Below, piece after piece: positions 9,799 through 33,289 of a DNA stretch of 35,433 bases (position 1 is the first letter of the stretch; the number at the start of each line of letters is the position of its first letter). Source of the stretch: an uncultured Selenomonadales bacterium (GTDB lineage Bacteria > Bacillota > Negativicutes > Selenomonadales > Selenomonadaceae). The notes under the pieces are model-generated. The model worked only from the letters and a program-made list of their open reading frames with translations, had not been told where the DNA came from and searched no databases. The stretch lies in contig CAMUZU010000023.1 in the NCBI GenBank assembly GCA_947165295.1, forward strand, positions 1-35,433, given 5' to 3'. The position numbers and the translations under genes are program-made.

Positions 9799-9902
9799 CC
9801 CGGCCGTCATGGATGACGGCCGCGCCGCTTGCGCGTGATACAGGATGTATCACAGCAAGCGCAGTTTCTTTGGTTACTTTCTTTGCTGCCAAAGAAAGTA
9901 AC
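9799..9902 (+). repeat. Dispersed three-hairpin element, copy A
   Basis: The order is palindrome CGGCCGTCATGGATGACGGC with CG (9801-9822), then a variable stem (GCTTGC 9827-9832, GTGATAC 9835-9841, GTATCAC 9847-9853, GCAAGC 9855-9860), then a 13-bp stem GTTACTTTCTTTG (9873-9885) with loop CTGC and CAAAGAAAGTAAC (9890-9902). The same order recurs at 22608, 31791 and, inverted, 33175. It lies just past the stop codon of the ClC gene. Confidence 0.85.
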
Positions 9903-9909
9903 AAACCCG

Positions 9910-11259
9910 TCAACGTTTCGACTGCGACCGTTCCAACAACGCGGAAAAAATCGGTTCGCCGCCGCACAAGTCCGCGACGATAAACGCCGTGCCCGCAATG
10001 ATTATCAGCCAGAACAGGTGCGCGAATTGTCCCGTCAGCTCAAGAATCAAAACCGCGCCCGTGACGGGTGACTTGACGACCGCCGCGAAAAACGCCGTCA
10101 TGCCGAAGATGATAAACAGCGTCGTCCAGTCCGCCGTAAAAATGTCCAGCGCGTTGCCGACGCGTGCGAAAATGTTGCCAATCAGCGCGCCGATAACCAG
10201 CACGGGCAGGAACAATCCGCCGGGTGCGTTCGTCCCGAAACAAATCAGCGTGAACAAAATTTTTCCGACGATCAGAATCGCAAGCAGGCTCAACGTCAAA
10301 TGCGACACCAAAATTTCGTCGACCAGCACGTTGCCGCAACCCAAGACCTGCGGAAGCTCCACGCCCAGCGGCACAATCAGCAGGAACGGTATCAAAAATC
10401 TGCGCGTGCCGAAAAGTTTCAGCCCGTCGAAGGCGTCCTGCGCGAAAATCAACGCTTGCATGAACAGTGCGCCCGTGACTCCGCAGACGACGCCGAACAA
10501 CATAAACAACGCGACGAACTTCAGCGGCGCGGCGAACATGACGTGCGCCATTTCGTCCGTCGGCAACGTCGCAACCGTCGGGATGTTCAAAGGTGTACGC
10601 GTGATTGTCTCGAAGACCGGCCGCACGCCGAAGACGATTTTCACGACGAATGACGCGGTGACCGCCGCAGTGACCGCCGAAATCAACAGTTCAGGCGAGA
10701 ACTTTTTGCGCAGTTCTTCAATGCAGAAAATCACGCCCGCCAACGGTGCGTTGAAAATCGCCGCAAGACCCGCGCCCGCGCCCGCAGTTAACAGGAAGTC
10801 GCCTTCAACGGATTGATGTCGGGGACTGTCGCCGTAAAATTTTTTCGTGAAGAAGTTGCCGACCGCCGCGCCGAATTGCACGCTGACTCCCGCACGACCG
10901 AGCGACATGCCCGCGCCGATTGTCATGACCGTCGCGAAGAACTTCACCGCAAGCAAACGAAGCGGCCTGAACATTTCGGAACGCTCCTGCAAGATGCCTT
11001 TGACTTGCGGGACGCCGCTGCCTTTGACTTGCGAATCGAACTTGACCGCCCGCGACAAAATCACCGCGAACAAAATCATCACGCCGCACGCCAATAAAAA
11101 TTTCCCGACGCTGTCGACTTGCGCGAAGATTATCGGACGCCAAATGTCCGCCGTGTCAAGCAAGAATCGAAGTGCCGCGACGACCACGCCCGTCACCGCG
11201 CCGACTAAAATTCCTTCGCCGAACAAACGCACGCGCAGGAGTCGCCTCTTCGTCAGCAA
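9910..11259 (-). CDS. ClC family chloride channel/transporter lacking the gating glutamate
   Basis: The 449-residue, multi-membrane-spanning protein has the ClC signatures KGSGVPQVKG (selectivity serine), a GRxGxxVQ motif, an inner-side CIEELRKKF (the internal proton-path glutamate) and APGGLFLP. In this copy the second motif reads GRAGVSVQ (alanine at about residue 123; codons GGT CGT GCG GGA), where ClC transporters normally have GREGP. The external gating glutamate is therefore replaced, predicting an open or uncoupled anion pathway. TTG 11259 is preferred because GGAGG is 8 bases upstream; a longer N-terminus would cover the promoter. TATAAT lies at 11284-11279 on the minus strand. Confidence 0.88.
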   Translation of the reverse strand: MLTKRRLLRVRLFGEGILVGAVTGVVVAALRFLLDTADIWRPIIFAQVDSVGKFLLACGVMILFAVILSRAVKFDSQVKGSGVPQVKGILQERSEMFRPLRLLAVKFFATVMTIGAGMSLGRAGVSVQFGAAVGNFFTKKFYGDSPRHQSVEGDFLLTAGAGAGLAAIFNAPLAGVIFCIEELRKKFSPELLISAVTAAVTASFVVKIVFGVRPVFETITRTPLNIPTVATLPTDEMAHVMFAAPLKFVALFMLFGVVCGVTGALFMQALIFAQDAFDGLKLFGTRRFLIPFLLIVPLGVELPQVLGCGNVLVDEILVSHLTLSLLAILIVGKILFTLICFGTNAPGGLFLPVLVIGALIGNIFARVGNALDIFTADWTTLFIIFGMTAFFAAVVKSPVTGAVLILELTGQFAHLFWLIIIAGTAFIVADLCGGEPIFSALLERSQSKR

Positions 11260-11312
11260 CGAACTCACCTCCGCGAACATTATACGTCGCGGAAAAGTTT
11301 TTGCCACGCGCC

Positions 11313-11341
11313 TTGACAAAAATTTTTCCGACAAATAAAAT
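11313..11341 (+). promoter_or_regulatory. Strong sigma-A promoter for the YbjN gene
   Basis: TTGACA (11313-11318), a 17-base spacer and TAAAAT (11336-11341), about 27 bases before the ATG at 11369. It is divergent from the ClC gene, whose probable TATAAT lies at 11279-11284 on the other strand. Confidence 0.75.
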
Positions 11342-11368
11342 CGTCGCGACGGAAGGAGAGCGATTTTT

Positions 11369-11869
11369 ATGGACGAAGCTTTGGAAAAAACCACCGACAC
11401 GACCGCTTTGATTCGTGCGGCCGTCGAAGATTTCTTCGCACGCGACAACGTGAAGTATCAGCCGTTCAACGAACGCGACGTTGCCAAGGCGACTTACTCC
11501 ATCGATACCAGATTTCGGCACGTCGACGTTTTCTTCAACGCGTACAAGGACAAGCTCATCCTGCATTTGATTTTGCCGTTGAGTGCCGAAGAGGACGAAC
11601 GCGCCAAAGTCGGCGAATTCATCTTGCGCGCCAATTACGGCTTGAAGGTCGGCGGATTCGATTTCGACTTCAACGACGGCGAAATTTCTTACCGCACGTC
11701 AATTTACTGCGGCGACGAAGAATTTTCTGCCCCGACGTATGAACAGATCGATTTCGCGCTGGTTATCGGTTTGATTATGATTGAGAAATACGGCAACGCG
11801 CTGGTCAAAGTCATGTTCGGCGTGCTTGAGCCCGACGACGCGATTGAGTCCGTCGAAGGCGACGACTAA
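11369..11869 (+). CDS. YbjN domain-containing protein
   Basis: The 166-residue acidic, soluble protein has an alpha/beta arrangement with DTRFRHVDVFFNAYKDKLIL, NYGLKVGGFDFDFNDGEISY and a C-terminal AIESVEGDD tail. The order resembles the YbjN fold, related to type III secretion chaperones (an N-terminal helix, then a sheet seen as short alternating strands). The precise role is unknown in most species. The ATG follows GGAGAG. It is a single-gene unit with its own promoter and terminator, divergent from the ClC gene. Confidence 0.6.
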   Translation: MDEALEKTTDTTALIRAAVEDFFARDNVKYQPFNERDVAKATYSIDTRFRHVDVFFNAYKDKLILHLILPLSAEEDERAKVGEFILRANYGLKVGGFDFDFNDGEISYRTSIYCGDEEFSAPTYEQIDFALVIGLIMIEKYGNALVKVMFGVLEPDDAIESVEGDD

Positions 11870-11890
11870 CTGCAACTTTCGCAAACAAAA

Positions 11891-11927
11891 ATCCCCCGAC
11901 ATTAATTGATGTCGAGGGATTTTTTTG
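11891..11927. terminator. Bidirectional terminator between ybjN-like gene and purD
   Basis: ATCCCCCGACAT (11891-11902) pairs with ATGTCGAGGGAT (11909-11920; one C/A mismatch) and is followed by TTTTTTT. An A-run upstream (11886-11891) serves purD on the other strand. Confidence 0.8.
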
Positions 11928-11940
11928 TTGTCCGCGTGAA

Positions 11941-13200
11941 TCAGTTCAAAGCTCGTGCGGCAATGTCGCGGCGAAAATGCATGTCGGCGAAGTGAATCAC
12001 GTCCACGCAACGATACGCCTTGTCGACGGCTTCGCGCAGATTTTGAGCCGTGACCGTGACGCCCAAAACTCGCCCGCCGCTTGTGACAAGTTCGCCGTTG
12101 GCAAGTTTCGTGCCCGCGTGGAAAATCAGCGCGCCGAGACTTTTTGCCTTCGTGACGCCGTCAATCGGCAAGTTCTTTCGATACGACTTCGGGTAACCGC
12201 CGCTTGCCAAAATGACGCAAACCGCGCTTTGTTCGCTCCACGAAAGTTTTTTCGCGTTCAACGTGCCTGTCGCGCAGGCGTCCATCAAGTCAAGCAAATC
12301 GCTTTCCAAAAGCGGCAGGACAACTTGAGTTTCGGGGTCGCCGAATCTGCAGTTGAATTCGACGACTTTCGGTTGACCGTCGCGAATCATCAAGCCCGCG
12401 TACAGGCAACCGCGATAAGTGACGCCTTCGGCTTTGAGCGCGGCAATCGTCGGGCGAAGAATTTTTTCCGTGACCAGTGCGGCAACTTTTTCGTCGACAA
12501 TCGGTGCGGGCGCGTAAGCTCCCATGCCGCCGGTGTTAAGACCTTTGTCGCCGTCGAGGGCGCGTTTGTGATCTTGCGCGGCTTTGAGCGGCAGAATCGT
12601 TTCGCCGTCCGTCAACGCAAGCACGGAGGCTTCTTCGCCGTCCATGAATTCTTCAACGACGATGCGACTGCCCGCCGTGCCGAAAGTTTTCATCTCGTCG
12701 ACGGCCGACAACGCTTCGTCCAAAGTTTGCGCGACGATAACGCCTTTGCCCGCGGCAAGTCCGTCAGCTTTGACGACAACGGGCGCGCCTTTCGTGCGGA
12801 TGTAATTTTTCGCGGCGTCGATGTCGTCGAAAACTTCAAAGTCGGCGGTCGGGATGTTGTACTTCTTCATGAGGCGTTTGGCGAAAATTTTCGAGCCTTC
12901 AATCCGGGCGGCGTCCTTCGTGCAACCGAAAGCTTTAATGCCCGCGACGTTGAGCGCGTCGACAAGCCCGTTGACCAGCGGGGCTTCGGGGCCGACGACA
13001 ACCAAGTCAATCGCGTGCGCTTTGGCGAAGTCAACCACCGCCGCGTTGTCGTCGATTGAAATGTTCGCGACGCATTCGGCGAAGTTCGCGATACCGGGGC
13101 TGCCGGGAATTGCAAACATTTTCGTCAGGCGCGGGCTTTGCGAAAGTTTCCAAGCAAGCGCGTGTTCGCGACCGCCGCCGCCGATTAGCAAAACATTCAT
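11941..13200 (-). CDS. purD: Phosphoribosylamine-glycine ligase (GAR synthetase)
   Basis: This purine pathway enzyme joins glycine to 5-phosphoribosylamine with ATP. The 419-residue protein starts [20 protein letters not shown], the PurD signature. ATP-grasp elements follow ([16 protein letters not shown], about residues 139-154; [34 protein letters not shown]). The ATG at 13200 has GGAGG upstream. It lies 15 bases after greA, as the last gene of an MBL hydrolase-greA-purD unit. No other pur gene is in the window. Confidence 0.95.
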
Positions 13201-13215
13201 GAGCGTTCCTCCGCG

Positions 13216-13686
13216 TCACTTAATCTCCAAAATCTCAAAGTCAAAGATGCCTGCGGGCGCATGAACTTGCACGGTTTGCCCTGCGGTCTTGCCGATAATC
13301 GCGGCGCCGACGGGCGACTCGTCCGAAATTTTGTTGTCTTCGGGGTCAGCTTCGGTCGAGCCGACAATCATGTACGTTTCAGTCGTGTTAAGTTCAACGT
13401 CGCGCACGGTGACGGTGCTACCGATTGCAACTTTGTCCGTGCTTGTCGTCGAGTGGATAATTTCGCTGTTGCGCAGTTTGGCTTCCAGTTCGATGATTTC
13501 GGATTCGAGGCGCGCCTGTTCGTTTTTGGCGTCGTCGTATTCGGAGTTCTCGCTCAAGTCACCGAGTGCAATGGCGGCCTTCAAGCGTTCGGAAATTTCA
13601 ATGCGGCGCACGCTCTTAAGCAGGTCGAGCTTTTCGACAAGCTTGTCGTAGCCGTCCTGCGTGAGCATGATTTTCTTTTCAGCCAT
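13216..13686 (-). CDS. greA: Transcription elongation factor GreA
   Basis: The 156-residue protein has the GreA architecture: an N-terminal coiled coil with the acidic tip (ALGDLSENSEYDDAKNEQAR, about residues 39-60, carrying D and E residues that stimulate RNA polymerase cleavage), then a C-terminal FKBP-like domain (VGSTEADPEDNKISDESPVG, about 108-127). It rescues backtracked RNA polymerase. The ATG follows AAGGAG, 26 bases after the MBL hydrolase gene. Confidence 0.95.
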   Translation of the reverse strand: MAEKKIMLTQDGYDKLVEKLDLLKSVRRIEISERLKAAIALGDLSENSEYDDAKNEQARLESEIIELEAKLRNSEIIHSTTSTDKVAIGSTVTVRDVELNTTETYMIVGSTEADPEDNKISDESPVGAAIIGKTAGQTVQVHAPAGIFDFEILEIK

Positions 13687-13712
13687 GAATCAAGTCTCCT
13701 TGAAAGTTTCGG

Positions 13713-14420
13713 TCAGATGATTAACTGTTCGCCGGGCGTGACGGGTGCCCACGTCGGCACGTCTTTGGACAGCTTGACGAACGCGGGCGACGGCTCCCAC
13801 AGCGGATAATCGACGCGGTGCATTGCGACGAAATTTTTGATGTTGACGCGCTGAACGAATTCGATTGCGCCCATTTCTTCCGACACGCCGAGCCGCCCGT
13901 CAATCGGGAAAAACGCCACGTCCGCTTCAAGACCATCCATGCGTTTGAGTTGACGCTTGAAGATTTTTTCGGCCAGCTCCAAATTCTCGCGGGTGTCGTC
14001 CGTCCAATGCCACCAGTTGAAGTCGCCCGCGTGGAAAATCTTTTTGCCCGACGGAAATTCAATCAGGAACGAAATGCCCACGTCCGTCGAGTCGAAGGTC
14101 GTCACCTTGAGCACGTCGTCCGTCCATTGGCTGTAGCGTTTGATGTACGTGATTTTGTTCGACGGGAAGACTTTGACGCGCTTGGTGTGCTTGATATCGC
14201 TGGAAAAGATGTAGCGCGTGACCTTCGGCGCATAAGCCCGGATGTGCGTGCCGAAGTGATCGAAGTGCGCGTGCGTGACGAAGACGTAAAAGTTGTCGTA
14301 GTCGTCGCGGTCGTAAGCGGCGTCGGCGGCGCCCGACGGGTCGTCGTAGTCGTCAATCACGAGCAGAATGTTTTCGTCGCGAATCATGAATCCGCTGTTG
14401 AGCAAGTAAGTAATTTCCAT
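13713..14420 (-). CDS. MBL-fold metallohydrolase
   Basis: The 235-residue protein contains THAHFDHFGTH near residues 53-63 (HxHxDH zinc motif) and later IFHAGDFNWWHW and AMHRVDYPLW, consistent with the metallo-beta-lactamase fold of the UlaG-like type. The substrate is unknown. ATG 14420 has AGAGAGGAC just upstream, and starts further out give a basic, unlikely N-terminus. It is the first gene of a unit with greA and purD. Confidence 0.8.
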   Translation of the reverse strand: MEITYLLNSGFMIRDENILLVIDDYDDPSGAADAAYDRDDYDNFYVFVTHAHFDHFGTHIRAYAPKVTRYIFSSDIKHTKRVKVFPSNKITYIKRYSQWTDDVLKVTTFDSTDVGISFLIEFPSGKKIFHAGDFNWWHWTDDTRENLELAEKIFKRQLKRMDGLEADVAFFPIDGRLGVSEEMGAIEFVQRVNIKNFVAMHRVDYPLWEPSPAFVKLSKDVPTWAPVTPGEQLII

Positions 14421-14620
14421 AAAAATTTGTCCTCTCTCGGCCGATGTTGATTTTTTGTGCGAGGGCGGCCGTACCCCGATTGTTGCAGTCGCGTAAAAGT
14501 TTGGTAATCGCCTCCTTGCGGATAATTTATATGTGTCGTCGTTGCGGCTAATTGGTGCGTTGCTTGATTGAATTTGAACTGCCTTGCCGCGTTGACGATA
14601 AAATTTCAATCGTTGCGCTT
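14421..14620 (-). promoter_or_regulatory. Leader/promoter region of the MBL-greA-purD unit; orphan ribosome binding site
   Basis: The gap between the MBL gene and yitT is 425 bases. The half nearest the MBL gene has a TATAAA-like box near 14526-14531 and an AAGGAGG at 14510-14516 (both minus strand). No ATG, GTG or TTG follows the AAGGAGG at a suitable distance, so it looks like the remnant of a lost small gene or leader peptide. The rest of the gap is the tandem repeat array. Confidence 0.3.
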
Positions 14621-14860
14621 GTCGACGTGAAGCGTGACGTTGTCGGCGTTGAATCAATCGCCGTGATTGTCGACGTGAAGCGTGACGTTGCCGACGTCGA
14701 ATCAGTCACCGCGCTTGTCGACTTGAAGCTTAACGTTGTCGCCGTCGAATCAGTCACCGCGCTTGTCGACTTGAAGCTTAACGTTGTCGCCGTTGAGTCA
14801 ATCGCCGTGATTGTCGACGTGAAGCTTAACGTTGCCGGCGTTGAATCAATCGCCGCGCTT
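14621..14860. repeat. Five tandem 48-bp repeats at the 3' end of yitT
   Basis: Units begin with GTCGAC at 14621, 14669, 14717, 14765 and 14813, exactly 48 bases apart, and differ by a few substitutions. The last unit overlaps the final 15 bases of yitT including its stop, and every unit keeps a TGA in the yitT frame. Both strands stay open in one frame over the array (16-residue units beginning VDVK on +, Ser/Thr-rich units on minus), but neither frame has a convincing start or ribosome binding site. No spacers occur, so it is not CRISPR. Confidence 0.85.
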
Positions 14861-15796
14861 GTTTGCAAGAGCGTCTTGAATGCGCTGTTCGACTTCGGGG
14901 TCAATCTTCTGGTCTGTGCGGAACTTGACGTTGTGTCGCGTGGGGCGACTGAAGCCGCGTCCCATGACTTCACTTGCCGACAAAATCAGCATGAAGGCGT
15001 TCCTGTCGACGGTGTTGACGATGATTTTTATCTTGGCTATCTGCGTCATGCTCACCACAACCATGACGATTTTTTTCGGGTCGCCGGTGTACGCGCCTTC
15101 GCCGTTGAGAAAGGTGACTCCGCGCCCGATGTCGGCGATAATACCGTCGGCAATGTCGACAGCCTTGTTCGAGACAATCAGAATCGCCTTGCGTTGATTG
15201 AAGCCGTCGATAACCTTGTTGGTCACCTGCGACGTGACGTACATGCAAATCAGCGTAAACATTGCGCCTTGAATGCTGAACAGCGCGCCCGCGATTGCCA
15301 CGATTAAGCAGTTGAAGCCGAAGATAACCGAGCCGATTTCCATTGAGTAATACTTTTTGAAAATCGCGCCGAGGATGTCGAAGCCGCCCGTCGAGCCGTT
15401 CATGCGAAAGACAATGCCGTAACCGATGCCGTTGAATATCCCGCCGTAAATCGACGCAAGCATCAAGTCATCAACGGGCAACATGCCGTTAAGAAACTTC
15501 GTGGCGTCGAGCGCGAACGAAAACATTACCGTCCCGATAACAACGTCGATCGTGTATTTTTTGCCCAGCAACTTGTACGATGCGATTAAAAGCGGCACGT
15601 TGTAAGCAAGTGTCTGCAAACCGATTGGCAAGCCCGCCAGAAAGTAAAAGATTATTGCAATGCCTGTGACGCCGCCGGTCAACAAACTGCTTGGCACGAC
15701 GAACAGGTTGATTGAACTTGCCGCGACGAGACAACCGAGCAGAATCCCGACGTAACGCAACGGGTTCCACTTGACCAGGACTGAAGTCAATCGCAC
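14846..15796 (-). CDS. YitT family membrane protein (DUF161/DUF2179)
   Basis: The 316-residue protein has about five to six hydrophobic segments in the first 200 residues (for example LRYVGILLGCLVAASSINLF and SLLTGGVTGIAIIFYFLAGL) and the family motif NGSTGGFDILG. A soluble C-terminal DUF2179 domain follows (GRGVTFLNGEGAYTGDPKKI). Function in the family is not settled, and a transport role has been suggested. GTG 15796 is chosen because AAAGGAGG lies 7 bases upstream. The 3' end merges into the tandem repeat array. Confidence 0.85.
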   Translation of the reverse strand: MRLTSVLVKWNPLRYVGILLGCLVAASSINLFVVPSSLLTGGVTGIAIIFYFLAGLPIGLQTLAYNVPLLIASYKLLGKKYTIDVVIGTVMFSFALDATKFLNGMLPVDDLMLASIYGGIFNGIGYGIVFRMNGSTGGFDILGAIFKKYYSMEIGSVIFGFNCLIVAIAGALFSIQGAMFTLICMYVTSQVTNKVIDGFNQRKAILIVSNKAVDIADGIIADIGRGVTFLNGEGAYTGDPKKIVMVVVSMTQIAKIKIIVNTVDRNAFMLILSASEVMGRGFSRPTRHNVKFRTDQKIDPEVEQRIQDALANKRGD

Positions 15797-15810
15797 GAGA
15801 ACACCTCCTT

Positions 15811-16395
15811 TCACACGCGTAAAGAATTATAACACAAAATCTGCTTTACGCGAAAAAATATTTTTGCGACGTACAACCGACGTTGCCTTAACGAGCCGTG
15901 GTGCCGCCACCGCCGGTCGTTGGAAGTTTTGGCGACGAGCTTAAAGAAAACGTCCAACTCCTTCGCGCACAGCCGCCGACAAAAAATTTCGCGGGACTTC
16001 GCTTCGACGGTATCCCAACGAAAACGCTTGTGCCCGAAACGCGGATCGTCGAGCCGTTGCAACATTTCAATCTGCGCGGGCAGTTCGACGTTCGCACGGA
16101 AGAAATGTTTCAGCGCGGCGTGAACGAATTGCAACGTCAACGAATTGCCCGCCGTGTTCGACGGAATGAAGTTCACTTGCCGCAGAATGTTCTTCGCGCC
16201 GTCGAAGGTGACTTCGGGCTTGTAAATTATGAACGGCAGGCTCCGCAGTTCACGCCGCGTGAAGTCGTCGTCCCCGCGCAGAAATTTCGCAAGCAGTCGG
16301 TTCAAGAGATTGAGCGTCGCGGCGGAAGTTTCCGTTTGTTTGGCGTGAGCGTCGAGAGCTTTAATCAACTTTTCGTCGATTATTCCTAATTCCAC
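15811..16395 (-). CDS. Protein of unknown function, probably frameshifted near its end
   Basis: I do not recognise the family. The body (GIIDEKLIKALDAHAKQTET, FIIYKPEVTFDGAKNILRQV and onward) has coherent helices and codon use typical of neighbouring genes. It overlaps the end of a small membrane protein gene and probably starts at GTG 16395, with no good ribosome binding site, so translational coupling is likely. After FKLVAK near 15925 the frame runs into a basic, cysteine-containing tail across the yitT promoter. The adjacent frame instead gives KLPTTGGGGTTAR and a stop at 15888-15890, a more natural end. This suggests a one-base frameshift. Confidence 0.45.
   Translation of the reverse strand: MELGIIDEKLIKALDAHAKQTETSAATLNLLNRLLAKFLRGDDDFTRRELRSLPFIIYKPEVTFDGAKNILRQVNFIPSNTAGNSLTLQFVHAALKHFFRANVELPAQIEMLQRLDDPRFGHKRFRWDTVEAKSREIFCRRLCAKELDVFFKLVAKTSNDRRWRHHGSLRQRRLYVAKIFFRVKQILCYNSLRV
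15816..15852 (-). promoter_or_regulatory. yitT promoter flanked by a 9-bp inverted repeat
   Basis: The minus strand has TATAAT at 15831-15826. It lies between perfect arms CGCGTAAAG (15816-15824 on +) and CTTTACGCG (15844-15852), 19 bases apart. The dyad brackets the -10 element, a typical position for a repressor operator, though it could also form a leader hairpin. Confidence 0.45.
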
Positions 16396-16519: not shown

Positions 16520-16578
16520 GTGAATTCCTCCCGAAAAGTTTTGAGACAATTGTACGGCGGCGAAGTTTTTTGCGCAAG

Positions 16579-20306: not shown

Positions 20307-20654
20307 GGGGATGCAATGGTTTCGACGGGGATGGATGAAGTTCGATAAGCGAGCATCGGTTCCGCCACCGATTGACAAGCGGAAACTTTAAAATATCTGC
20401 GGACTACGACGAAGTAGCCCTGGCGGCTTAACGCCACCCCTGCTTGACTGATTCCGCCTGTCAGGTCAAGGTCGGGGGTCAATAACAGGCTACCGCGTTT
20501 GAGAGCACTGTAAGACGCGGGAACTTCCAAAGTGCTCGGTTGCGTCAAGTTTGTTGTCGAGTTTGGCGAAACTTAAATCTTTCGGCAACTGCGCTCGGAG
20601 AAAGTTGAGCGGCGACATTTTCGGACAGGAGTTCGATTCTCCTCATCTCCACCA
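20307..20654 (+). ncRNA. ssrA: tmRNA (ssrA), tag peptide ADYDEVALAA
   Basis: The transcript rescues stalled ribosomes and tags their products. The 5' end GGGGATGCAATGGTTTCGAC is the tmRNA signature, pairing with CATCTCC near the 3' end, which closes with encoded ACCA (to 20654). The T-arm GAGTTCGATTCTC is visible at 20629-20641. The coding part runs GCG GAC TAC GAC GAA GTA GCC CTG GCG GCT TAA (20399-20431), giving ADYDEVALAA. The LAA end is the usual ClpXP signal. Its length of about 348 bases is normal. Confidence 0.95.
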
Positions 20655-22555: not shown

Positions 22556-22567
22556 CGCCCGCCGCGA

Positions 22568-22587
22568 CGTAAATCCGGCCGTCATGG
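22568..22587 (+). repeat. Partial copy (B') of the dispersed element
   Basis: CGTAAATCCGGCCGTCATGG here recurs exactly 40 bases downstream at 22608-22627 as the start of copy B. The downstream hairpins are absent, so this is a truncated or internally duplicated end. Confidence 0.7.
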
Positions 22588-22607: not shown

Positions 22608-22722
22608 CGTAAATCCGGCCGTCATGGATGACGGCCGCTTTCGCCCGCGTTGAAACCCGGAAGGTTTCACTGCGGGCGCAGTTTCTTTTGGTTACTTTTC
22701 TTTGCTGTCAAAGAAAAGTAAC
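22608..22722 (+). repeat. Dispersed three-hairpin element, copy B
   Basis: The order is the same as copy A: the CCGGCCGTCATGGATGACGG palindrome, then a variable stem (CGCCCGC..TGAAACC..GGTTTCA..GCGGGCG), then GTTACTTTTCTTTG (22691-22704), loop CTGT, and CAAAGAAAAGTAAC (22709-22722). The final stem has one extra T/A pair relative to copy A. It ends 2 bases before the DUF554 stop codon. Confidence 0.85.
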
Positions 22723-25485: not shown

Positions 25486-27471
25486 TCAAGTTTTGCCGCG
25501 AATGATTTTGTTGAAGAGCGCAATCGTCGCGACGAAGACAAGCAAGCCCAAAATCTCCGCCGTGTCGGTGAATTCGTCGCCGACCAAAGCAAGCGGCGAA
25601 TCACTTCCGCCGCTCGACACGGACACGGCAATTATCGCCGCAATCAGCACGCCGATTAAACTTTCGCCGACGATTAAGCCCGACGCGAACAAAGTCCCGC
25701 GATGTTTGCCGGCTTCGACTTCAGCTTTACCGCGACTTTGCATTGACCGTTCGATTAAGTAACCCATGACCGCGCCGACGACCAAAGGCGTTTGCAGCGA
25801 CGGCGGCAGGTAAATCCCGATACCGACTGCCAAAGGCGGCAAGCAAAGATTTTTCGTGTGACTTTTCAACAGCTCGTCGACAATGACAATCACGACGCCC
25901 AGCGCAATTCCGAAGTAAATGTATTCCCACGCAAGGTTTGCGGAAAAAATTCCCTGCGCAATCATCGTCATTAAAGTTGCTTGCGGTGCCGCCAAAGCGT
26001 TATCGGGATTCATGTCCGCCCGCGGCAAAGCTCCCGTGAAGCCGTAAGCTTGATACAGCATGTTGAGCACGGGCGCGATAACCACTGCTCCGACAACGCA
26101 ACCGAGTAACAGCGCAACCTGCTGATGTCGCGGCGTCGCGCCGACAAGAAAGCCCGTCTTTAAGTCCTGCATGTTGTCGTTTGAGATACACGCAATCGCC
26201 AAAATTATGCTTGTCGTGAAAATCGCCGTCGCCGTCGCAAACTTCGTGCCGCCTTCCAACTCGAAAATCCCGAATGCGTCGCAAAGAGCCATCATCACCA
26301 GCGACGAAATTATTATCGCCAAAATGCCGATACCCGAAATCGGGCTTGACGACGTGCCGACAAGTCCCGCCATGTACGCGCACGCCGCCGCGACAAGAAA
26401 GCCCGTAACGACCGCCAATAACACGCCGCTCAATGCGAACGTCAAAGTCTGCGCGACGGGAAGTCCTTCGACGCTTACGAACGCAAAAAAAATTCCGAGC
26501 AAGCCCGCGAACATCACCGCGAATGTCATTGCGATTGAACGAATTGACATGTCGGTATCCGTGCGGTGACGCGCTTGAACTTCGGCAGGCTCCCGCGCAG
26601 ATTGAATCGCTTCTTTCACGCCGTCGATAACCGGTCGCGCCAACTTTATCAGCGTCCAAATTGCCGCGACGCCCATGACGCCCGCGCCGATTAAACGAAC
26701 TTTGCCCGTGTAACACGCCTGCGCGAACTGTTGCAAGCTTTGACCGTCGGCAGGTGCGCCCGTTGCCGTGAAGTATGGAATCATGACGACCCACGCCAAA
26801 ATTATTCCGACGAGCAGAGCCAGCCCGCTTGCAAGGCCGATTAAATATCCCGCGCCGACAAGAGCCGACGAATAGCCCAGCGACAGTTGCGTCAAGCCGT
26901 GACCGACCGAAAACCACACGCTCAGCCCGTCCGCCAAGACGTGAAAACCGTTGGTGCACAGCGAAACCAGTCCCGCAAATGTGCCGCCCGTCAAAAGTTC
27001 ACGCAAGCCGCCTTGAGAGTGAGAGTCGCCGACTTTCAAAATCTCCGCCGCCGCCACGCCTTCGGGGTACGGTAAATCGCTGTGCACGACCATTGCACGC
27101 CGCAGGGGTATCGTGAACAGCACGCCGAGACAGCCGCCGCACGCCGCAATTAACATCGTCTGCCACAGCTCGAAGTCTTGCCAGTAACCGATCATCAACA
27201 TGCCGGGGACGATAAAAATTATCGCCGACAGCGTGCCCGCCGCCGACGCCTGCGTTTGAACCATGTTGTTTTCCAAAATGTTGGAGTTGCCCGCCATTCG
27301 CAGGACAGCCATCGAAATGACCGCCGCGGGTATCGCCGACGAAAAAGTCAGCCCGACTTTCAAGCCGAGGTAGACATTCGACGCCGTGAAAACGACCGTG
27401 AGCAATGCGCCCAAAATCATCCCGCGCAAAGTCAGTTCGGGTAACTCAGTTTCAGTATGTAAAGTTTTCAT
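25486..27471 (-). CDS. OPT family oligopeptide/metal-chelate transporter
   Basis: The 661-residue integral membrane protein begins MKTLHTETELPELTLRGMIL and GALLTVVFTASNVYLGLKVG LTFSSAIPAA, typical of bacterial OPT transporters. More than a dozen hydrophobic segments follow, and the family motifs NNMVQTQASAAGTL and GGCLGVLFTIPLRRAMVVHS are visible. OPT proteins import oligopeptides or metal chelates. The start ATG at 27471 has only a weak GGAA upstream. It follows the PNPOx-GLUG gene by about 55 bases and ends at a strong terminator. Confidence 0.9.
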   Translation of the reverse strand: MKTLHTETELPELTLRGMILGALLTVVFTASNVYLGLKVGLTFSSAIPAAVISMAVLRMAGNSNILENNMVQTQASAAGTLSAIIFIVPGMLMIGYWQDFELWQTMLIAACGGCLGVLFTIPLRRAMVVHSDLPYPEGVAAAEILKVGDSHSQGGLRELLTGGTFAGLVSLCTNGFHVLADGLSVWFSVGHGLTQLSLGYSSALVGAGYLIGLASGLALLVGIILAWVVMIPYFTATGAPADGQSLQQFAQACYTGKVRLIGAGVMGVAAIWTLIKLARPVIDGVKEAIQSAREPAEVQARHRTDTDMSIRSIAMTFAVMFAGLLGIFFAFVSVEGLPVAQTLTFALSGVLLAVVTGFLVAAACAYMAGLVGTSSSPISGIGILAIIISSLVMMALCDAFGIFELEGGTKFATATAIFTTSIILAIACISNDNMQDLKTGFLVGATPRHQQVALLLGCVVGAVVIAPVLNMLYQAYGFTGALPRADMNPDNALAAPQATLMTMIAQGIFSANLAWEYIYFGIALGVVIVIVDELLKSHTKNLCLPPLAVGIGIYLPPSLQTPLVVGAVMGYLIERSMQSRGKAEVEAGKHRGTLFASGLIVGESLIGVLIAAIIAVSVSSGGSDSPLALVGDEFTDTAEILGLLVFVATIALFNKIIRGKT

Positions 27472-27526
27472 GTCAAGTTGTTCCAATCAAATTAATCGCA
27501 TTCAAGAAATTCCGCGCAGAAACAGT

Positions 27527-29008
27527 TCAGCTCGTGAATTGAAGTTTCGGCATAACCGACGAAGTCAAGTCGTCGTCAAAAACAATTTTGCCGCCCGTGA
27601 AGTTGCCGACGGTGAGCGTCGCGCCGCCTGTGAAAAAAGTTTTGCCGCCGATTTCGATTGCGCCGTCGACCGTCACGCCTTCGGGAAATTTAATCGAGTA
27701 AACCCGCGTCACGGTGCCTGCAATTTCGCCTTCATTGCGTCCGACAGTTTCGGTTTGGTTGCCGTGATAATAGTTGGTGCCGTTGATTACACCGTCGTTG
27801 TTGTTGTAGCTGTTGGAGCCGACAAACCCGCCGACATCTTCCTTGCCGCTGATAGTCGCGTTGCTGACGGTGCAATTCTCAACTGTAGTACCGACGCCGC
27901 CGTTGGAGCCGACAAGCCCGCCGACACCCTGATTGCCGCTGACAGTCGCGTTGTTGACCGAGCAGTTATTGACTGTGCCTCGGTTGTGGCCGACAAGCCC
28001 GCCGACAAGCCCGCCGACATCTTCGTTGCCGCTGACAGTCGCGTTGTTGACCGAGCAGTTATTGACTGTGCCTCGGTTGTGGCCGACAAGCCCGCCGACA
28101 AGCCCGCCGACATCTTCGTTGCCGCTGACAGTCGCGCCGCTGACGGTGCAATCCGTGACGGTGCCCCAGTTTAAGCCGACAAGCCCGCCGACATCTTCGT
28201 TGCCGCTGATTTTGACGTTCGTCAAGTTGAGATTTTTAATCGTGCCGCCTTCGCCGACGCAACCGAACAGCCCTTGACAGTTGACCGACGGATTGTCGAT
28301 GGTGAGGTTGTTGATTGTGTGGTCTTGCCCGTCGAACGTGCCGTTGAACGGTCTTGTATCGTCGTCGTTGATGCAGCAACCGATTGGCGTCCATTCTTCG
28401 CTGAGTTCAATGTCGGCGGTGAGCACGAAGAATTTGCCCGCGAAGTCATTGCCCGCGTTCACGTCTTCGGCAAGCTGTTTGAGATCTTCGGCGGAATTGA
28501 TTTCGTAAGGCTTCTCTGCGGAGCCGTCGCGTTTGACAAGTTCGCGAGCCGCCTTGCCCGTCAAGTGTTCGACTTCCAAAACGAGTACCGACAGCGCGTC
28601 AACACGTGTAAGTTCACGTTCGCGACGTTCGGGGCTTGCCGTCGACGAAAATTTGTCCGCCAACAGTTCAAGCCCGTGAAGTTTTTCGGCGCGGTCTTCG
28701 ACGACTTTAATCCGCCCGAAAGCAATCGCGCTTGAAAAGTACGACGTGAACTCTTCGGCAACGACATCGTGCTTGTCGACGACGCAGAACGAAACTTTTT
28801 CGTTGCGGGCAATGGCGTCAATCTTGTGCCCGACCTTCGCGCTGTGGAAATAAATTTTGTTGCCGTCGACGGCGTAATTAATCGGCACGGCGTAACCGTA
28901 ACCGTCATCGCCCGACAAGGCAAGCACGCCGTAATCGCCTTCGCGCAGAATTTTTTCGGCGACCTCGTTCGGCAAAAGTTGTTTAATGCGGCGCATTTCG
29001 CGGAACAT
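27527..29008 (-). CDS. PNPOx-like flavin domain fused to GLUG-repeat region
   Basis: The 493-residue protein has a NimA/pyridoxamine-5'-phosphate-oxidase-like domain at residues 1-160: MRRIKQLLPNEVAEKILREG, YAVPINYAVDGNKIYFHSAK, VGHKIDAI and LEVEHLTGKAARE. It then continues with the opening of an IgA-peptidase/GLUG type region, GSAEKPYEINSAEDLKQLAE and LTADIELSEEWTPIG, and about five GLUG units (GNEDVGGLVG and related, roughly residues 280-420). The first part normally binds FMN in the cytoplasm. The second is typical of surface adhesins. There is no signal peptide or membrane anchor. ATG 29008 follows GAGGTGATTGAC. Two 93-bp units are identical. Confidence 0.8.
   Translation of the reverse strand: MFREMRRIKQLLPNEVAEKILREGDYGVLALSGDDGYGYAVPINYAVDGNKIYFHSAKVGHKIDAIARNEKVSFCVVDKHDVVAEEFTSYFSSAIAFGRIKVVEDRAEKLHGLELLADKFSSTASPERRERELTRVDALSVLVLEVEHLTGKAARELVKRDGSAEKPYEINSAEDLKQLAEDVNAGNDFAGKFFVLTADIELSEEWTPIGCCINDDDTRPFNGTFDGQDHTINNLTIDNPSVNCQGLFGCVGEGGTIKNLNLTNVKISGNEDVGGLVGLNWGTVTDCTVSGATVSGNEDVGGLVGGLVGHNRGTVNNCSVNNATVSGNEDVGGLVGGLVGHNRGTVNNCSVNNATVSGNQGVGGLVGSNGGVGTTVENCTVSNATISGKEDVGGFVGSNSYNNNDGVINGTNYYHGNQTETVGRNEGEIAGTVTRVYSIKFPEGVTVDGAIEIGGKTFFTGGATLTVGNFTGGKIVFDDDLTSSVMPKLQFTS
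27935..28120. repeat. Two identical 93-bp units within the GLUG region
   Basis: 27935-28027 and 28028-28120 are identical and encode the 31-residue unit with GHNRGTVNNCSVNNATVSGN. Flanking units are diverged, so this pair is a recent in-frame duplication. Confidence 0.9.
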
Positions 29009-29018
29009 GTCAATCACC

Positions 29019-29399
29019 TCAACGACCGGCGGAAACACCGTCGCGAATGAACTTGGCAAGCTTGTCGCTCTCCTTGGACGCGGTGTCGAGCTTGACAATT
29101 TCGTTGCGGCACTCGGTCAACATTTTAATCGCGGCTTCGAGTTGCTTAAGCGTGAGTTCGGCTTCGTCTTCGCCGAATTTCTTCATGGTCTGTCGACAGT
29201 TGCGCAAAAGTTTTTCGCGAAGTTCGGCACGATATTTCTTGTGCGAGGCAATTTCGGACGCAAGATTTTCGATCTGCTCCATGGTGTGAATCGCGGCGAG
29301 ATAATCGTACTTCAACTGCGCGGAAAGCGGAACGTCAACGTCGCCCGCAGAAATTTTTCCGCTGTTAATTACGTCTTTGAATCTGTCAATGGTTGCCAA
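29019..29399 (-). CDS. Helical protein of unknown function
   Basis: The 126-residue, charged protein is probably largely alpha-helical: IENLASEIASHKKYRAELRE, AELTLKQLEAAIKMLTECRN and SKESDKLAKFIRDG. It has no signal peptide or membrane segment. The second TTG at 29399 is preferred because GGGAG lies 8 bases before it. It sits between pnp and the PNPOx-GLUG gene, 10 bases from the latter. I do not recognise the family. Confidence 0.6.
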   Translation of the reverse strand: MATIDRFKDVINSGKISAGDVDVPLSAQLKYDYLAAIHTMEQIENLASEIASHKKYRAELREKLLRNCRQTMKKFGEDEAELTLKQLEAAIKMLTECRNEIVKLDTASKESDKLAKFIRDGVSAGR

Positions 29400-29430
29400 A
29401 GTCAACGCTCCCTTTCCGCTGAAGATGAGT

Positions 29431-31686
29431 TTAACGGTCTCTGCGACGACGCGGGTCGCGGTTTTTCAAGTCACGCAAATCCTTGACCGTGCGCGAACCG
29501 TCGGAACGCGGTCTGTCGTCACGACGCGGCGGACGATTGTCGTCACGGCGAGGCGGACGATTGTCACTGCGCGGCGGACGAGGCGGACGCGGTGAATCGC
29601 CTTCCAACAACGCACGGTGACTGCCGTTGATTCGGCCTTTGTCGTCGACTTCGGTGATTTTGATTTTGAGCTTGTCGCCGACCTTGACGACTTCTTCGAC
29701 GGTTTCAATTCTGCGCGTCGCAAGTTGCGAAATGTGACACAGGGCTTCCTTGCCGAAAGAAATTTCCACGAAAGCGCCAATCGGCATGATTCGCGTAACG
29801 GTGCCTTCGTAAACTTCGCCGGGCGTGACGTCGTGAACAATCTGTTCGATAATCTCAATCGCACGGTCAATGCCTTCAACGCTCTTGGACGTGACGAAAA
29901 TTTGTCCGTCTTCGTGAATGTCGATTTCAACGCCGGTTTCTTCGATGATTTTGTTGACGACCTTGCCGCCCGTGCCGATAACTTCGCGAATTTTGTCAAC
30001 GTCGATTTTAATCGTGCGGACACGCGGCGCATACGGCGACAAATCGGGCGCGGGTTCGCTGATAACTTCAAGCATCTTGCCGAGAATGAACGCACGACCG
30101 CGTTTCGCCTGAGCAAGCGCGTCGGACAAAATTTCACGCGAAATGCCCGCGACTTTGATGTCCATTTGAATCGCGGTGACGCCTTCGGTTGTGCCCGCAA
30201 CTTTAAAGTCCATGTCGCCGAGCGCGTCCTCCATGCCTTGAATGTCGGTCAAAATCGTGTGCGCGTCGCCGTCTTTGACGAGACCCATTGCCACGCCGCT
30301 GACGGGACGTTTAATCGGAACGCCCGCTTGCATCAAACTTAAAGTACTGCCGCAAACGCTGCCCATTGAACTTGAGCCGTTGCTTTCGAGAACTTCCGAC
30401 ACAAGGCGAATCGTGTACGGGAATTCTTCAATCGACGGAATGACGGGCACAAGCGCACGTTCCGCCAAAGCACCGTGACCGATTTCGCGACGACCGGGCG
30501 CACGAGCAGGCCGCGCTTCGCCGACACTGTAGCCGGGGAAGTTGTAGTGATGAATGTAATGTTTCGTGTATTCGGGTTCAAGCCCGTCGATAATTTGTTC
30601 GTCGCCGACCGAGCCCAAAGTTGTGATTGTCAAAACCTGCGTTTGTCCGCGTGTGAAAAGTCCTGAACCGTGCGTGCGTGCGAAAAGTCCGACTTCGCAA
30701 CTTATCGGGCGAACTTCTTCAAGGCCGCGACCGTCGGGACGAATTTTTTCGTGCGTTATCATCTTGCGGACAACTTCTTTTTCGACCTTGTAAAAAATCG
30801 CGCCGATTTCTTTTTCGAGCGTCGGATATTCGTCGGCGGGGAATTTTTCAGTCAACGCCGCGACAACTTCGGCTTTGACCGCGTTGAGTGCCGCTTCACG
30901 TTCGAGCTTGTCGGGATTGCGGACGACCGTGTCAATTTTTTCGGTTGCAAGTTCGCGAACAGCCGCGTCAATGTCTTCGTTCGGGCGGAAAAGTTTGACT
31001 TCGCGCTTCTCCTTGCCGACTGCCGCCGCGATTTCGTTTTGGAAGGCGACAATTTTTTTAATCGCTTCGTGCCCGAAAAGAATCGCTTCAAGCACGACGT
31101 CTTCGGGCAACTCTTTGACGCCCGCCTCAACCATCATGACCGCATCCGCCGAGCCCGCGACGATTAAATCCATTTCGGACACGTCGAGCTGTTCCTTCGT
31201 CGGGTTGATGATAAATTCGCCGTCAATTCTGCCGACATGCACGCCGGCTATCGGGCCGTTAAAAGGAATGTCCGACACGCACAGCGCACACGACGCACCA
31301 ATCATGCCCGCGATTTCGGGCGCGTTGTCTTCGTCGAAACAAATTACCGTCGCGATAATCTGCACGTCGTTGCGGAAGCCGTCGGGGAACAGCGGACGAA
31401 TCGGGCGGTCAATCAGTCGGCTTTTGAGTATGCCGCTGGTTTGCGGACGACCTTCGCGCTTGATGAATCCGCCGGGGATTTTGCCTGCGGAATACATTTT
31501 TTCTTCGAAGTCGACGGTCAGCGGAAAGAAGTCGACGCCTTCGCGAGGTTCGGCGGACATTGTCGCCGCGACGAGTACCGCCGTGTCGCCGTAACGAACG
31601 AGTACCGCGCCGTTGGCCTGTTTGGCCATTTTGCCGTGTTCGACGACCAGTTTGCGGTCGCCGAGCTCCATTTCAAATGTGTTCAA
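29431..31686 (-). CDS. pnp: Polynucleotide phosphorylase
   Basis: The 751-residue 3'-5' exoribonuclease is complete: RNase PH domain 1 ([40 protein letters not shown]), a helical linker, RNase PH domain 2 ([40 protein letters not shown]), a KH domain with [15 protein letters not shown] and an S1 domain ([20 protein letters not shown]). The last 50 residues are an Arg/Asp/Pro-rich tail (RPPRRDD repeats), a probable flexible RNA- or protein-binding extension. It starts at TTG 31686 after AGGAGG. Confidence 0.96.
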
Positions 31687-31790
31687 AATAATTTCCTCCT
31701 AGATGTTTGTACGCATGAAACTTTCGACATAAAAATTCAACTTCCTTTAGCGCAACAAACTTTTGTGCGACACATTAACAGCAACGATAA

Positions 31791-31917
31791 CCGGCCGTCA
31801 TGGATGACGGCGCGAAAGCTTGCCAGCGCGCTTCCGCCCGCCCGTCGCACGATACAGGATGTATCGTAGCGGGCGCGGCTTTCTTTGCTACTTTCTTTCG
31901 CCGCCGAAAGAAAGTAG
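31791..31917 (+). repeat. Dispersed three-hairpin element, copy C
   Basis: It begins CCGGCCGTCATGGATGACGG, has an extra GCGC stem near 31811-31832 and a variable stem with CGATACAGGATGTATCG as its tip. It closes with CTACTTTCTTTCG (31888-31900), loop CCGC, and CGAAAGAAAGTAG (to 31917). It lies between fba and pnp. Confidence 0.85.
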
Positions 31918-31971
31918 ACGACAAACAAGAATTCAGTCGAAGTCGACGAGCCGCAACCGTCACGTTGACTG

Positions 31972-32008
31972 CAAATCAAAACCGCCCGTCGAAGTGACGA
32001 GCGGCTGT
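31972..32008 (-). terminator. Terminator after fba
   Basis: On the minus strand, CCGCTCGTC pairs with GACGGGCGG (one mismatch; arms 32004-31996 and 31990-31982), followed by TTTTGATTT. Confidence 0.65.
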
Positions 32009-32031
32009 TTTGTTTTTGTGTTGCCGAAAGA

Positions 32032-33030
32032 TTATTTCGCGTTGGCAAGTTCCATGATAGCGGCAGCGGTGCCTTCGGAGCCGAGAACTTCTTTAATCTT
32101 GTGCGCGACAAGTTCCTTGATGTATGCGCGGCCGGGTGCGAGATATTGACGCGGGTCGAAGTGATCGGGATGCGCAACGAAATGTTCGCGAATGCCCGCC
32201 GTCAACGCAAGGCGAAGGTCGGAGTCGATGTTGATTTTGCAGACCGCCGATTTCGCGGCTTTGCGCAATTGAGCTTCGGGAATGCCGACAGCGTCTTTCA
32301 GGTTGCCGCCGTTGTCGTTGATGATTTTGACGTATTTCGGAATAACCGAGGACGCGCCGTGAAGGACAATCGGGAAGCCCGGGATTTTCTTTTCGATTTC
32401 TTCGAGGATGTCGAAACGCAGTTCGGGCGGTTCAAGAACGCCGGTTTCGGGATTGCGCGTGCACTGTTCGGGCGTGAATTTGAATGCGCCGTGGCTGGTG
32501 CCGATAGCGATAGCCAAAGAGTCGCAGCCGGTTTTTTCGACGAACTCGAAGACTTCTTCGGGTTTCGTGTAGTGAGCTTTGTCCGCGTCAACGCTGACGT
32601 CATCTTCAACGCCCGCGAGCTGTCCGAGTTCAGCCTCGACAACAACGCCGTGTGCGTGTGCGTATTCAACAACTTCTTTGGTCTTTTCGATGTTTTCGGC
32701 GAAGGAATAATGCGAGCCGTCGAACATAACGGAAGTGAAGCCGCCGTCGATGCAGGATTTGCAGGTTGCGAAGTCCGGGCCGTGGTCAAGGTGAAGCGCA
32801 ATCGGAATGTCGCTGACTTCCAAAGCCGCACGAACGAGATGGACGAGATATTGATGGTTCGCGTACTTTCTTGCGCCGGCGGAGCATTGGAGAATGACGG
32901 GCGATTGGAGTTCGGCCGCGGCACCCGTGATGCCCTGGACAATTTCCATGTTGTTGACGTTGAACGCGCCGATAGCGAAGCCGCCTTCGTGAGCTTTCTG
33001 GAACATAGCTTTGGTCGTAATCAATGGCAT
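32032..33030 (-). CDS. fba: Fructose-bisphosphate aldolase class II
   Basis: The 332-residue zinc aldolase splits fructose 1,6-bisphosphate in glycolysis. Motifs are AIGAFNVNNMEIVQGI, LHLDHGPDF with zinc His at residue 83 and Asp 82, VEAELGQLAGVEDD, IGTSHGAFKF, VLHGASSV and KINIDSDLRLA. ATG 33030 follows AGGAGG. It is a single-gene unit with a terminator. Confidence 0.95.
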   Translation of the reverse strand: MPLITTKAMFQKAHEGGFAIGAFNVNNMEIVQGITGAAAELQSPVILQCSAGARKYANHQYLVHLVRAALEVSDIPIALHLDHGPDFATCKSCIDGGFTSVMFDGSHYSFAENIEKTKEVVEYAHAHGVVVEAELGQLAGVEDDVSVDADKAHYTKPEEVFEFVEKTGCDSLAIAIGTSHGAFKFTPEQCTRNPETGVLEPPELRFDILEEIEKKIPGFPIVLHGASSVIPKYVKIINDNGGNLKDAVGIPEAQLRKAAKSAVCKINIDSDLRLALTAGIREHFVAHPDHFDPRQYLAPGRAYIKELVAHKIKEVLGSEGTAAAIMELANAK

Positions 33031-33096
33031 TTGGCATTACCTCCTAAAAAATATCAAACGATTCGCGGGGCTTGTGACCCCCTTAACAACGCGGAC

Positions 33097-33126
33097 ATTT
33101 TAACACACTTGACGCCGAAGTTGCAA
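33097..33126 (-). promoter_or_regulatory. Probable fba promoter
   Basis: On the minus strand, TTGCAA (33126-33121), an 18-base spacer and TAAAAT (33102-33097), about 67 bases before the ATG. Confidence 0.45.
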
Positions 33127-33174
33127 CCTGCAGTTGAAAAAAATATTTCGACAATTCAACGTGTGACGTGTCGT

Positions 33175-33289
33175 GTTACTTTCTTTCGGCGCGAAAGAAA
33201 GTAACCAAAGAAAGCAGCCCGACGGAGTTTGCATCACGCAAACACGTCGGGCGCGGCCGTCATCCATGACGGCCGGATTTACGTCGCGG
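33175..33289 (-). repeat. Dispersed three-hairpin element, copy D (inverted)
   Basis: Read on the minus strand it has CGCGACGTAAATCCGGCCGT and the ATGACGGCCG half of the palindrome. A variable stem follows (GCCCGACG with CGTCGGGC, tip GTTTGC/GCAAAC). The final 14-bp stem is GTTACTTTCTTTCG, loop CGC, CGAAAGAAAGTAAC (33188-33175). Its first bases overlap the end and stop codon of the GT41 gene. Confidence 0.85.

Follow-up and report, generated by a model that had tools for sequence, protein, structure and literature searches.

What sort of element keeps the pairing of its stems from copy to copy while their letters change? The question is raised by contig 23 (CAMUZU010000023.1, forward strand) of an uncultured Selenomonadales bacterium, whose assembly (GCA_947165295.1) comprises 2.49 Mb and is 80% complete; the window below means this whole stretch of 35,433 nucleotides. 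An earlier note, made from the letters alone, had described in it four full copies of a dispersed element built of three hairpins. All four are present, and the element is real and widespread. The CTTTC-rich terminal hairpin named in the note exists as well; what goes beyond that description are a pyrimidine tract that mirrors one arm of this hairpin, a pairing of the hairpin loop with upstream bases, and a constant NGGA loop in hairpin 1. Judging from these sequences, we consider it rather probable that the element is a non-autonomous dispersed repeat, similar to repetitive extragenic palindromes (REPs) or miniature inverted-repeat transposable elements (MITEs), which is selected as a folded single strand with a terminal triple helix and is often pseudoknotted.

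The tract before the terminal hairpin

The pyrimidine tract that precedes hairpin 3 is the mirror image of the 5' arm of this hairpin, an observation that is very strongly supported. We examined 170 copies, 99 from the own genome and 71 from relatives found in a scan of named genomes, picked by an exact hairpin-1 core. The terminal hairpin could be parsed exactly in 136 of them, 135 of which have the tract; in the other 34 it was cut by the locus end, carried an insertion or deletion, or had arms other than TAC. In every one of the 135 copies, the run lengths of the tract fit a parallel Hoogsteen strand, a single G directly follows the tract, and the strands stand in the order of class IV intrastrand triplexes (5' Hoogsteen tract, pyrimidine arm, 3' purine arm, parallel match).

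Copies with asymmetric arms can tell a mirror from a direct repeat, as for example one with the arm TTTTCTTT and the mirrored tract TTTCTTTT. The second run mirrors the arm in 45 of 45 such copies and is a direct copy of it in none. These counts were obtained by parsing tracts by the last flanked C; an earlier parse, which misread tracts starting with TCTTT, left 7 of the 45 failing the exact mirror. With that first parse, the mirror held in 48 of 51 haplotypes compared to a permuted mean of 22 (0 of 10,000 permutations as high), while the control comparison gave 29 versus 25 (1110 of 10,000 as high). The tract is neither copied from the arm nor a Watson-Crick replacement of it, because either would give a direct repeat, and Watson-Crick slippage between tract and arm is ruled out by the asymmetric copies. 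The mirror instead fits a parallel pyrimidine third strand in which T would read A, and C would read G, of the purine arm. A generic mirror detector applied to 270 kb of sequence with some overlap returned 74 motifs at elements and three elsewhere, which were element-like, and none in 270 kb of order-1 Markov shuffles, one for each sequence.

Directly upstream of the tract, most copies carry bases complementary to the loop of the same hairpin, and the pairs vary between types (GCAG:CTGC, GCGG:CCGC, GCGT:ACGC, GTC:GAC(AAG), GCC:GGC(AAG) and CGAG:CTCG(GT)). Over 40 haplotypes the summed pairing score was 147.5, compared to a permuted mean of 116 and a maximum of 129.5; none of 2000 permutations reached it, also when exchange was allowed only within loop-length classes. 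Among haplotypes with loops of at least 4 nt, 31 of 33 pair at least three bases from the first loop base. Loop pairing is thus strongly supported, though not in every type. An H-type pseudoknot would result, its two stems being the loop pairing and the longer hairpin, in whose groove the tract would run as connecting strand.

Viral contigs, plasmids and other genomes extend both observations. Two mirror and two direct patterns, fixed before the viral contigs were viewed, matched 5 + 4 = 9 and 0 + 0 stretches, respectively. Since the other viral patterns select mirrored or symmetric tracts, only this comparison of nine versus none is unbiased for the mirror, and the count of 21 mirrors among 23 element-strand copies parsed from viral contigs is partly forced by the patterns. 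Loops were left unconstrained by the patterns, and the 22 distinct viral loop pairs scored 78 compared to a permuted mean of 55 and a maximum of 68 in 2000 permutations; this set includes one spurious reverse-strand pair (L159), and L275 and L278 were unparsed. Viral pairs such as GGAG:CTCC, CTTGAA:TTCAAG, AAGG:CCTT, AGGCT:AGCCT and GTGGC:GCCAC are unlike those of the window. Among plasmid records, Ilyobacter (Fusobacteriota) has two types, GCC:GGC and CTTGAT:ATCAAG, of which the second is asymmetric and mirrored, with a six-base loop match. Plasmids of Caballeronia, Paraburkholderia phymatum and Variovorax show the loop pairs GCTG:CAGC, GCGG:CCGC and TCGC:GCGA on symmetric arms, which makes them a test of the loop only.

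Finally, we examined 20 copies from ten other genomes of the genus, located with a covariance model trained on own copies. These have other letters in hairpins 1 and 2 and in the lower stem of hairpin 3 (TTAC/GTAA changed to CAAC/GTTG or CATAC/GTATG). By script the mirror was present in 19 of the 20, and in the twentieth (L319) a symmetric arm had been parsed wrongly. All seven truly asymmetric copies have the mirror; in L318, for instance, the arm runs are 3,6 and the tract runs 6,3.

Copies, copy number and genomic placement

Each of the four copies in the window folds into the three hairpins in the order described, with RNA z-scores of -6.5 (A), -7.9 (B), -4.4 (C) and -6.3 (D), and for each of them 0 of 200 shuffles folded as well. 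The stem changes that had been quoted between copies are correct. The copies and their parts are as follows.

9800..9902, + strand: copy A, whole element (fold and core search; covariance-model match of 111.4 bits)
9801..9822, + strand: copy A, hairpin 1 with apical loop TGGA (fold; the NGGA loop is constant in relatives despite stem changes)
9826..9861, + strand: copy A, hairpin 2, the variable stem (fold, alignment)
9861..9864, + strand: copy A, putative pseudoknot strand GCAG, pairable with the hairpin-3 loop CTGC at 9886-9889 (haplotype co-variation)
9865..9871, + strand: copy A, candidate third-strand tract TTTCTTT, parallel match to purines 9891-9897 (mirror rule)
9873..9902, + strand: copy A, hairpin 3 (arm 9873-9885, loop 9886-9889, purine arm 9890-9902)
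22566..22587, + strand: truncated tandem repeat upstream of copy B (5' flank and first half of hairpin 1)
22615..22722, + strand: copy B, whole element (hairpin 1 at 22616-22637, hairpin 2 at 22642-22678)
22678..22722, + strand: copy B, predicted triplex module: GCAG 22678-22681, tract TTTCTTTT 22682-22689, G linker 22690, hairpin 3 with asymmetric arm TTTTCTTT 22691-22704, loop CTGT 22705-22708 and purine arm 22709-22722
31791..31917, + strand: copy C, whole element (hairpin 1 at 31794-31811, an extra small hairpin at about 31812-31830, hairpin 2 at 31839-31875)
31875..31917, + strand: copy C, predicted triplex module: GCGG 31875-31878, tract CTTTCTTT 31879-31886, G linker 31887, hairpin 3 with arm 31888-31900, loop CCGC 31901-31904 and purine arm 31905-31917
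33175..33276, - strand: copy D, whole element (hairpin 1 at 33254-33275, hairpin 2 at 33217-33252)
33175..33216, - strand: copy D, predicted triplex module: purine arm 33175-33188, loop 33189-33191, arm 33192-33205, G linker 33206, tract 33207-33214

Copy B has an asymmetric arm with a mirrored, not a direct, tract, and its loop pairing includes one G.T; copy D belongs to the type with a 3-nt loop and has weak loop pairing. The core CCGGCCGTCATGG occurs in the window five times exactly and six times with up to two mismatches, compared to 0.8 expected. The fifth exact core, at 22575, belongs to the truncated repeat just upstream of copy B. The repeated stretch (22566-22587) includes ACGTAAAT, and the 5' flank may for this reason belong to the element.

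The loop of hairpin 1 reads [TCA]GGA, within the context CA-NGGA-YG, in 21 of 24 model matches by script and in L307 by eye, while the weaker matches L182 and L184 deviate; in the stem, pairs three to five counted from the loop differ in both partners. Hairpin 2 mostly carries NGGAN or GTGAN. Co-variation was assessed with RNAalifold on 69 sequences, and 11 of 26 consensus pairs had changed on both sides. Binding sites of CsrA/RsmA have the consensus ANGGA in an apical loop, in the longer form CA-NGGA-YG. Hairpin 1 resembles such sites in that CA-NGGA-YG is kept while the stem changes, whereas hairpin 2 differs from them with loops that include GTGAN and others. A motif scan of 1.49 Mb, a fraction of the sequence of these genomes, returned no csrA.

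Across the own genome, there are 96 + 80 = 176 exact occurrences of the 16-mer CCGTCATGGATGACGG, and a reversed-pattern control gave no match. The exact core is patchily distributed and present in 18 of 60 genomes of the genus; a covariance-model search, with a model built from 69 own copies, detected the element in 47 of the 60, the own one included (E ≤ 1e-4), with at least 65 matches in the own genome and 0 to 65 in the others. A scan of named genomes with a hairpin-1 20-mer returned at least 68 stretches; among the matches listed, all were Selenomonadaceae or Selenomonadales, and the carrier records that give a site name the gut of sheep, goat or roe deer. The own genome, too, very probably belongs to one of the Selenomonadaceae of the ruminant gut. 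The exact symmetric form of the terminal hairpin is rare at phylum level: among 199 genomes, its pattern occurred in the own one alone, and three other genera of the family had none. The terminal hairpin is present in 92 of the 99 own copies, and the remaining seven comprise five with a second repeat inside the hairpin and two deletion forms.

The gene context of the 99 own copies was derived with a simple codon-based caller trained on the window. The placement that had been proposed, between genes, near 3' ends and in no single orientation, holds on this scale. We found 91 copies between two called genes, six overlapping a called gene edge and two without a neighbour; gene 3' ends lay at a median distance of 17 bp, 5' ends at one of 86 bp. 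In co-directional gaps, 35 copies run with the genes and 32 against them, and 20 sites are convergent compared to four divergent ones. Several sites are free of the element in relatives, as is expected of MITEs. The pnp-fba gap that harbours copy C lacks it in G214, G221 and G210 and contains other sequence in G208. Two further intact own copies are absent at the matching site, one in G221 and G215 and one in G215, and a degenerate own copy is absent in G214. At the site of copy D, G214 (L173) holds a related element with compensatory stem changes and another triplex type, which is either a re-lettered ortholog or an independent insertion at a hot spot.

A probable folded strand and rival explanations

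The earlier note had argued for selection on a folded form, and this is supported by the 11 two-sided pairs and by the co-variation of both third strand and loop. None of the outcomes that the note had named as contrary arose, since further copies are numerous, the co-variation is strong and the searches brought up no matching described family. The conserved unit of about 100-130 nt (longer in some copies) would comprise hairpin 1 with its NGGA loop, hairpin 2 and the 3'-terminal hairpin. In most types the latter is predicted to close into an H-type pseudoknot with a triple helix of 7-10 layers, in which the tract would be the third strand, its pyrimidines running in parallel along the major groove of the stem and forming T.A-T and C+.G-C triples. 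The bases upstream of the tract would pair with the loop, and the single G would bridge the lower stem of 4-5 bp. One base bridging a lower stem of this length would fit the classic A-form deep-groove crossing of RNA pseudoknots. We consider RNA somewhat more likely than single-stranded DNA (ssDNA) as the folded strand, through or as which the element may have spread. In RNA, the terminal triple helix might stop 3' exonucleases and keep the element RNA intact, a protective function proposed by analogy with triple helices in eukaryotic RNAs, one of a transposon among them, and the GGA loops would be a protein-binding site.

Alternatively, the fold might act as an ssDNA hairpin end for a transposase or integrase that acts on ssDNA during replication, as REPs do with RAYT, and the triplex would then be one of DNA. 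This reading is unlikely in our view, although the patchy, dispersed presence, the absence of a clear gene-orientation bias (35:32) and the scarcity of G.T intermediates would agree with it. A class of repeats forming intrastrand DNA triplexes is also known already, and for another sequence such a triplex has been demonstrated in vitro (available part of PMC4666352). The search for REP-type enzymes speaks against it. No TnpA-REP was detected in the own genome, and Y1 transposases (PF01797) were absent at E 1e-3 from 18 of 20 searched genomes (the own one included) with at least 15 model matches, among them G204 (99% complete, 53 matches), many of the others being incomplete; G200 and G226 gave partial Y1 matches. 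REP/RAYT is therefore unsupported as the present mover. REPs have a fixed tetranucleotide foot of the GTAG type beside the hairpin; over the 99 own copies no bases 5' of hairpin 1 are invariant, and 28 of 91 copies end in GTAG, but within the stem, while the rest end in GTAAC. The single-G bridge over the lower stem would suit the A-form crossing mentioned above.

It is quite improbable that the element serves duplex DNA as a structural or topological feature, that is, as a cruciform or H-DNA, an insulator or a gyrase-type site after genes, like bacterial interspersed mosaic elements (BIMEs). Its position close to gene 3' ends, the excess of convergent over divergent sites and the freedom of orientation would agree with such a role, but the gap baseline (28 convergent, 22 divergent) stems from the same loci and is hence not an independent control. 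Pairing between loop and upstream bases has no evident role in a duplex, and a function that the host needs would be at odds with the patchiness within one genus. Passive copying of palindromes that template-switch correction keeps perfect, with no selection on the fold, would explain paired changes with few one-sided intermediates, the various combinations of stem types between copies and the partial duplication before copy B. Antiparallel hairpin correction makes inverted repeats, however, and not a mirror tract, and the same rules are found in unrelated sequences from other phyla. Neither third-strand nor loop co-variation would be created by correcting a simple hairpin. We regard this process as very improbable. 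That the hairpins are intrinsic terminators or attenuators is hardly credible: they do lie close to gene 3' ends, but no T run follows the terminal hairpin in the own copies read (91 3' flanks), and a terminator scan around copies C and D detected no such site within either element, the only terminator-like one being that of the aldolase gene at 31980-32006, which lies outside.

Several points weigh against selection on a folded strand with a terminal triplex, or leave parts of this reading less certain. The triple helix is itself predicted from sequence letters, and the symmetric arms of the Burkholderiales copies offer no test of the mirror. Types with a 3-nt loop (7 of 40 haplotypes, 30 of 135 copies) score 1.5-3, and their pairing often does not adjoin the tract; of the 20 model-found copies only nine (L307-L311, L320-L323) keep at least three anchored loop pairs, the others having two or fewer (a tenth, L319, is the wrongly parsed copy). 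Among viral copies, L265 and L270 lack an exact mirror, L261, L263 and L269 are unpaired, and in L274, L279, L280 and L281 the loop is paired off position; in L327 from Paraburkholderia PGU19, GCC:GGC is kept and the tract is irregular. Target-site duplications did not emerge, as the longest matches equal those of shuffles over 91 own copies, and the junctions are too diverged to fix the element ends. Relative to genes with a 3' end within 60 bp, 43 copies have the same and 28 the opposite orientation (p 0.10).

The identity of the strand is a further such point, since mirror symmetry does not fix it and the complement could form a purine-motif DNA triplex. The pyrimidine motif on the element strand is possible in RNA or DNA, the purine motif on the other strand in DNA only, as stated in the available part of PMC4666352. 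Nonstandard pairs provide thin evidence in favour of the element strand: in the loop pairing we counted three G.T and no A.C, next to seven C-C and one G-A, and in hairpin 2, where 32 of 312 pairs are nonstandard, five G.T and two A.C. The closing pair of hairpin 1 is A.C in two stems, and stem 2 switches from T-A to C-G almost without G.T intermediates, which is odd for slow RNA evolution. The flanks also speak for the element strand. About 10-15 bases on either side of the own copies are T-poor on this strand, a feature that unpaired linkers on it, or else a preference for certain targets, would explain.

Only tentatively do we extend the reading to mobile RNAs that cross bacterial phyla. 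It is doubtful, yet conceivable, that such RNAs would share a pseudoknotted triple-helix end of 7-10 pyrimidine triples, GGA hairpins that bind a CsrA-like protein, and a spread through RNA or a single strand by a mover other than Y1 transposases; they would then be a bacterial counterpart of the 3'-protecting triple helices in eukaryotic transposon and long non-coding RNAs.

Related systems and accompanying repeats

Our searches of Rfam and of open-access literature brought up no described family that matches the element, work on triplex repeats alone being close, and no previous account of a three-stranded, often knotted hairpin in a bacterial repeat. The doubt about novelty voiced in the earlier note was fair, as CTTTC hairpins do occur in other bacteria, and intrastrand triplex repeats are a known kind. 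At the gathering score, Rfam recognized in the window only the transfer-messenger RNA (tmRNA), whose gene lies at 20307-20654 and encodes the tag peptide ADYDEVALAA. At E values up to 1, six loci gave only a chance-level match to RefA5 (L020, 1594-1662; 24.3 bits compared to a gathering score of 91, E 0.75). The available parts of a survey of structure-related patterns (PMC4060949) and of a survey of stem-loop families (PMC2267715) contain nothing of the element.

Intrastrand triplex repeats, including BoxC/PIT and TMECO (Hoyne and Maher 2000, as cited in Holder et al. 2015, PMC4666352), are likewise dispersed in bacteria, and a single strand of theirs can fold back twice into a triple helix. 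As far as the available part of that paper goes, class IV, whose strand order the element shares, makes up 4% of potential triplex motifs, and the repeat studied there belongs to class II, is about 35 nt long and G/C-rich, and has the purine motif; neither pseudoknot nor Xanthomonas is a word used in the main text of the paper. The element differs from BoxC/PIT (class II, consensus CCCTCNCCC...; PMC4666352) in its letters, which form an A/T-rich pyrimidine motif, in the frequent closure by loop pairing, and in its position at the end of a three-hairpin element.

With REPs and BIMEs mobilized by RAYT the element has in common that it is short, intergenic, palindromic, non-autonomous and present in many copies, and it is set apart by its three hairpins, the triplex tract and the results of the Y1 search. 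Like MITEs it is dispersed, non-coding and mostly under 200 bp, but it lacks a target-site duplication above shuffles and a gene-bearing longer version, none being found within about 260-330 nt after hairpin 1 in the 99 own copies. The Caballeronia version does form inverted pairs: most of the 19 sites on plasmid pNK81 of Caballeronia sp. NK8 are arranged in this way, about 450-474 bp apart. A working analogy, with no homology claimed, is offered by the ENE (element for nuclear expression) and MALAT1-type triple helices. The plant transposon Evade carries an ENE that clamps the poly(A) tail in an RNA triple helix (available part of PMC12501189), likewise in the major groove at the 3' end of the RNA of a mobile element, whereas in the present element, a bacterial one, all three strands would be internal.

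Should the fold prove real, bacteria would contain many natural, sequence-diverse triple helices, often locked by a pseudoknot, and the copies would constitute a rich co-variation set for Hoogsteen triples, contacts that lie outside standard secondary-structure models. The element would also link REP-like repeats, intrastrand triplex repeats and RNA-protecting triple helices, and it would pose the question of what copies such elements where no REP transposase is found.

Several other repeats accompany the element. Inside hairpin 3 of five own copies (L006, L024, L026, L048, L071) lies a second repeat of about 110 bp, which has GCAACGTGGACGTTGC close to one of its ends and CCCGCTTTTAAAGCGGG close to the opposite one. 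It takes the place of TTACTTT(T) in the 5' arm and is possibly a mobile element with hairpin 3 as its target. L033 is one of the deletion forms. A tandem array of the element was observed at G000:C46:3916-4449, with three model matches 213 bp apart (3916, 4129 and 4342). On pNK81, a unit of about 500 bp is repeated several times (L236, L242, L246, L248, L252), with a GC hairpin outside its ends that contains GCCCCTGTGCGGGGC in several cases. Weak BLAST matches in a Lak phage (L324) and in Granulicella (L326) proved on inspection to be without the motif, and 317 Enterococcus records matching about half of the query were taken as chance, the listed ones lying inside an annotated gene. A shorter, similar-looking hairpin (TCTTTGGTTACTTTCTT...AAGAAAGTAAC and similar) is found in Subdoligranulum (L164) and in a faecal phage clone (L325), and both may represent a shorter variant of the element.

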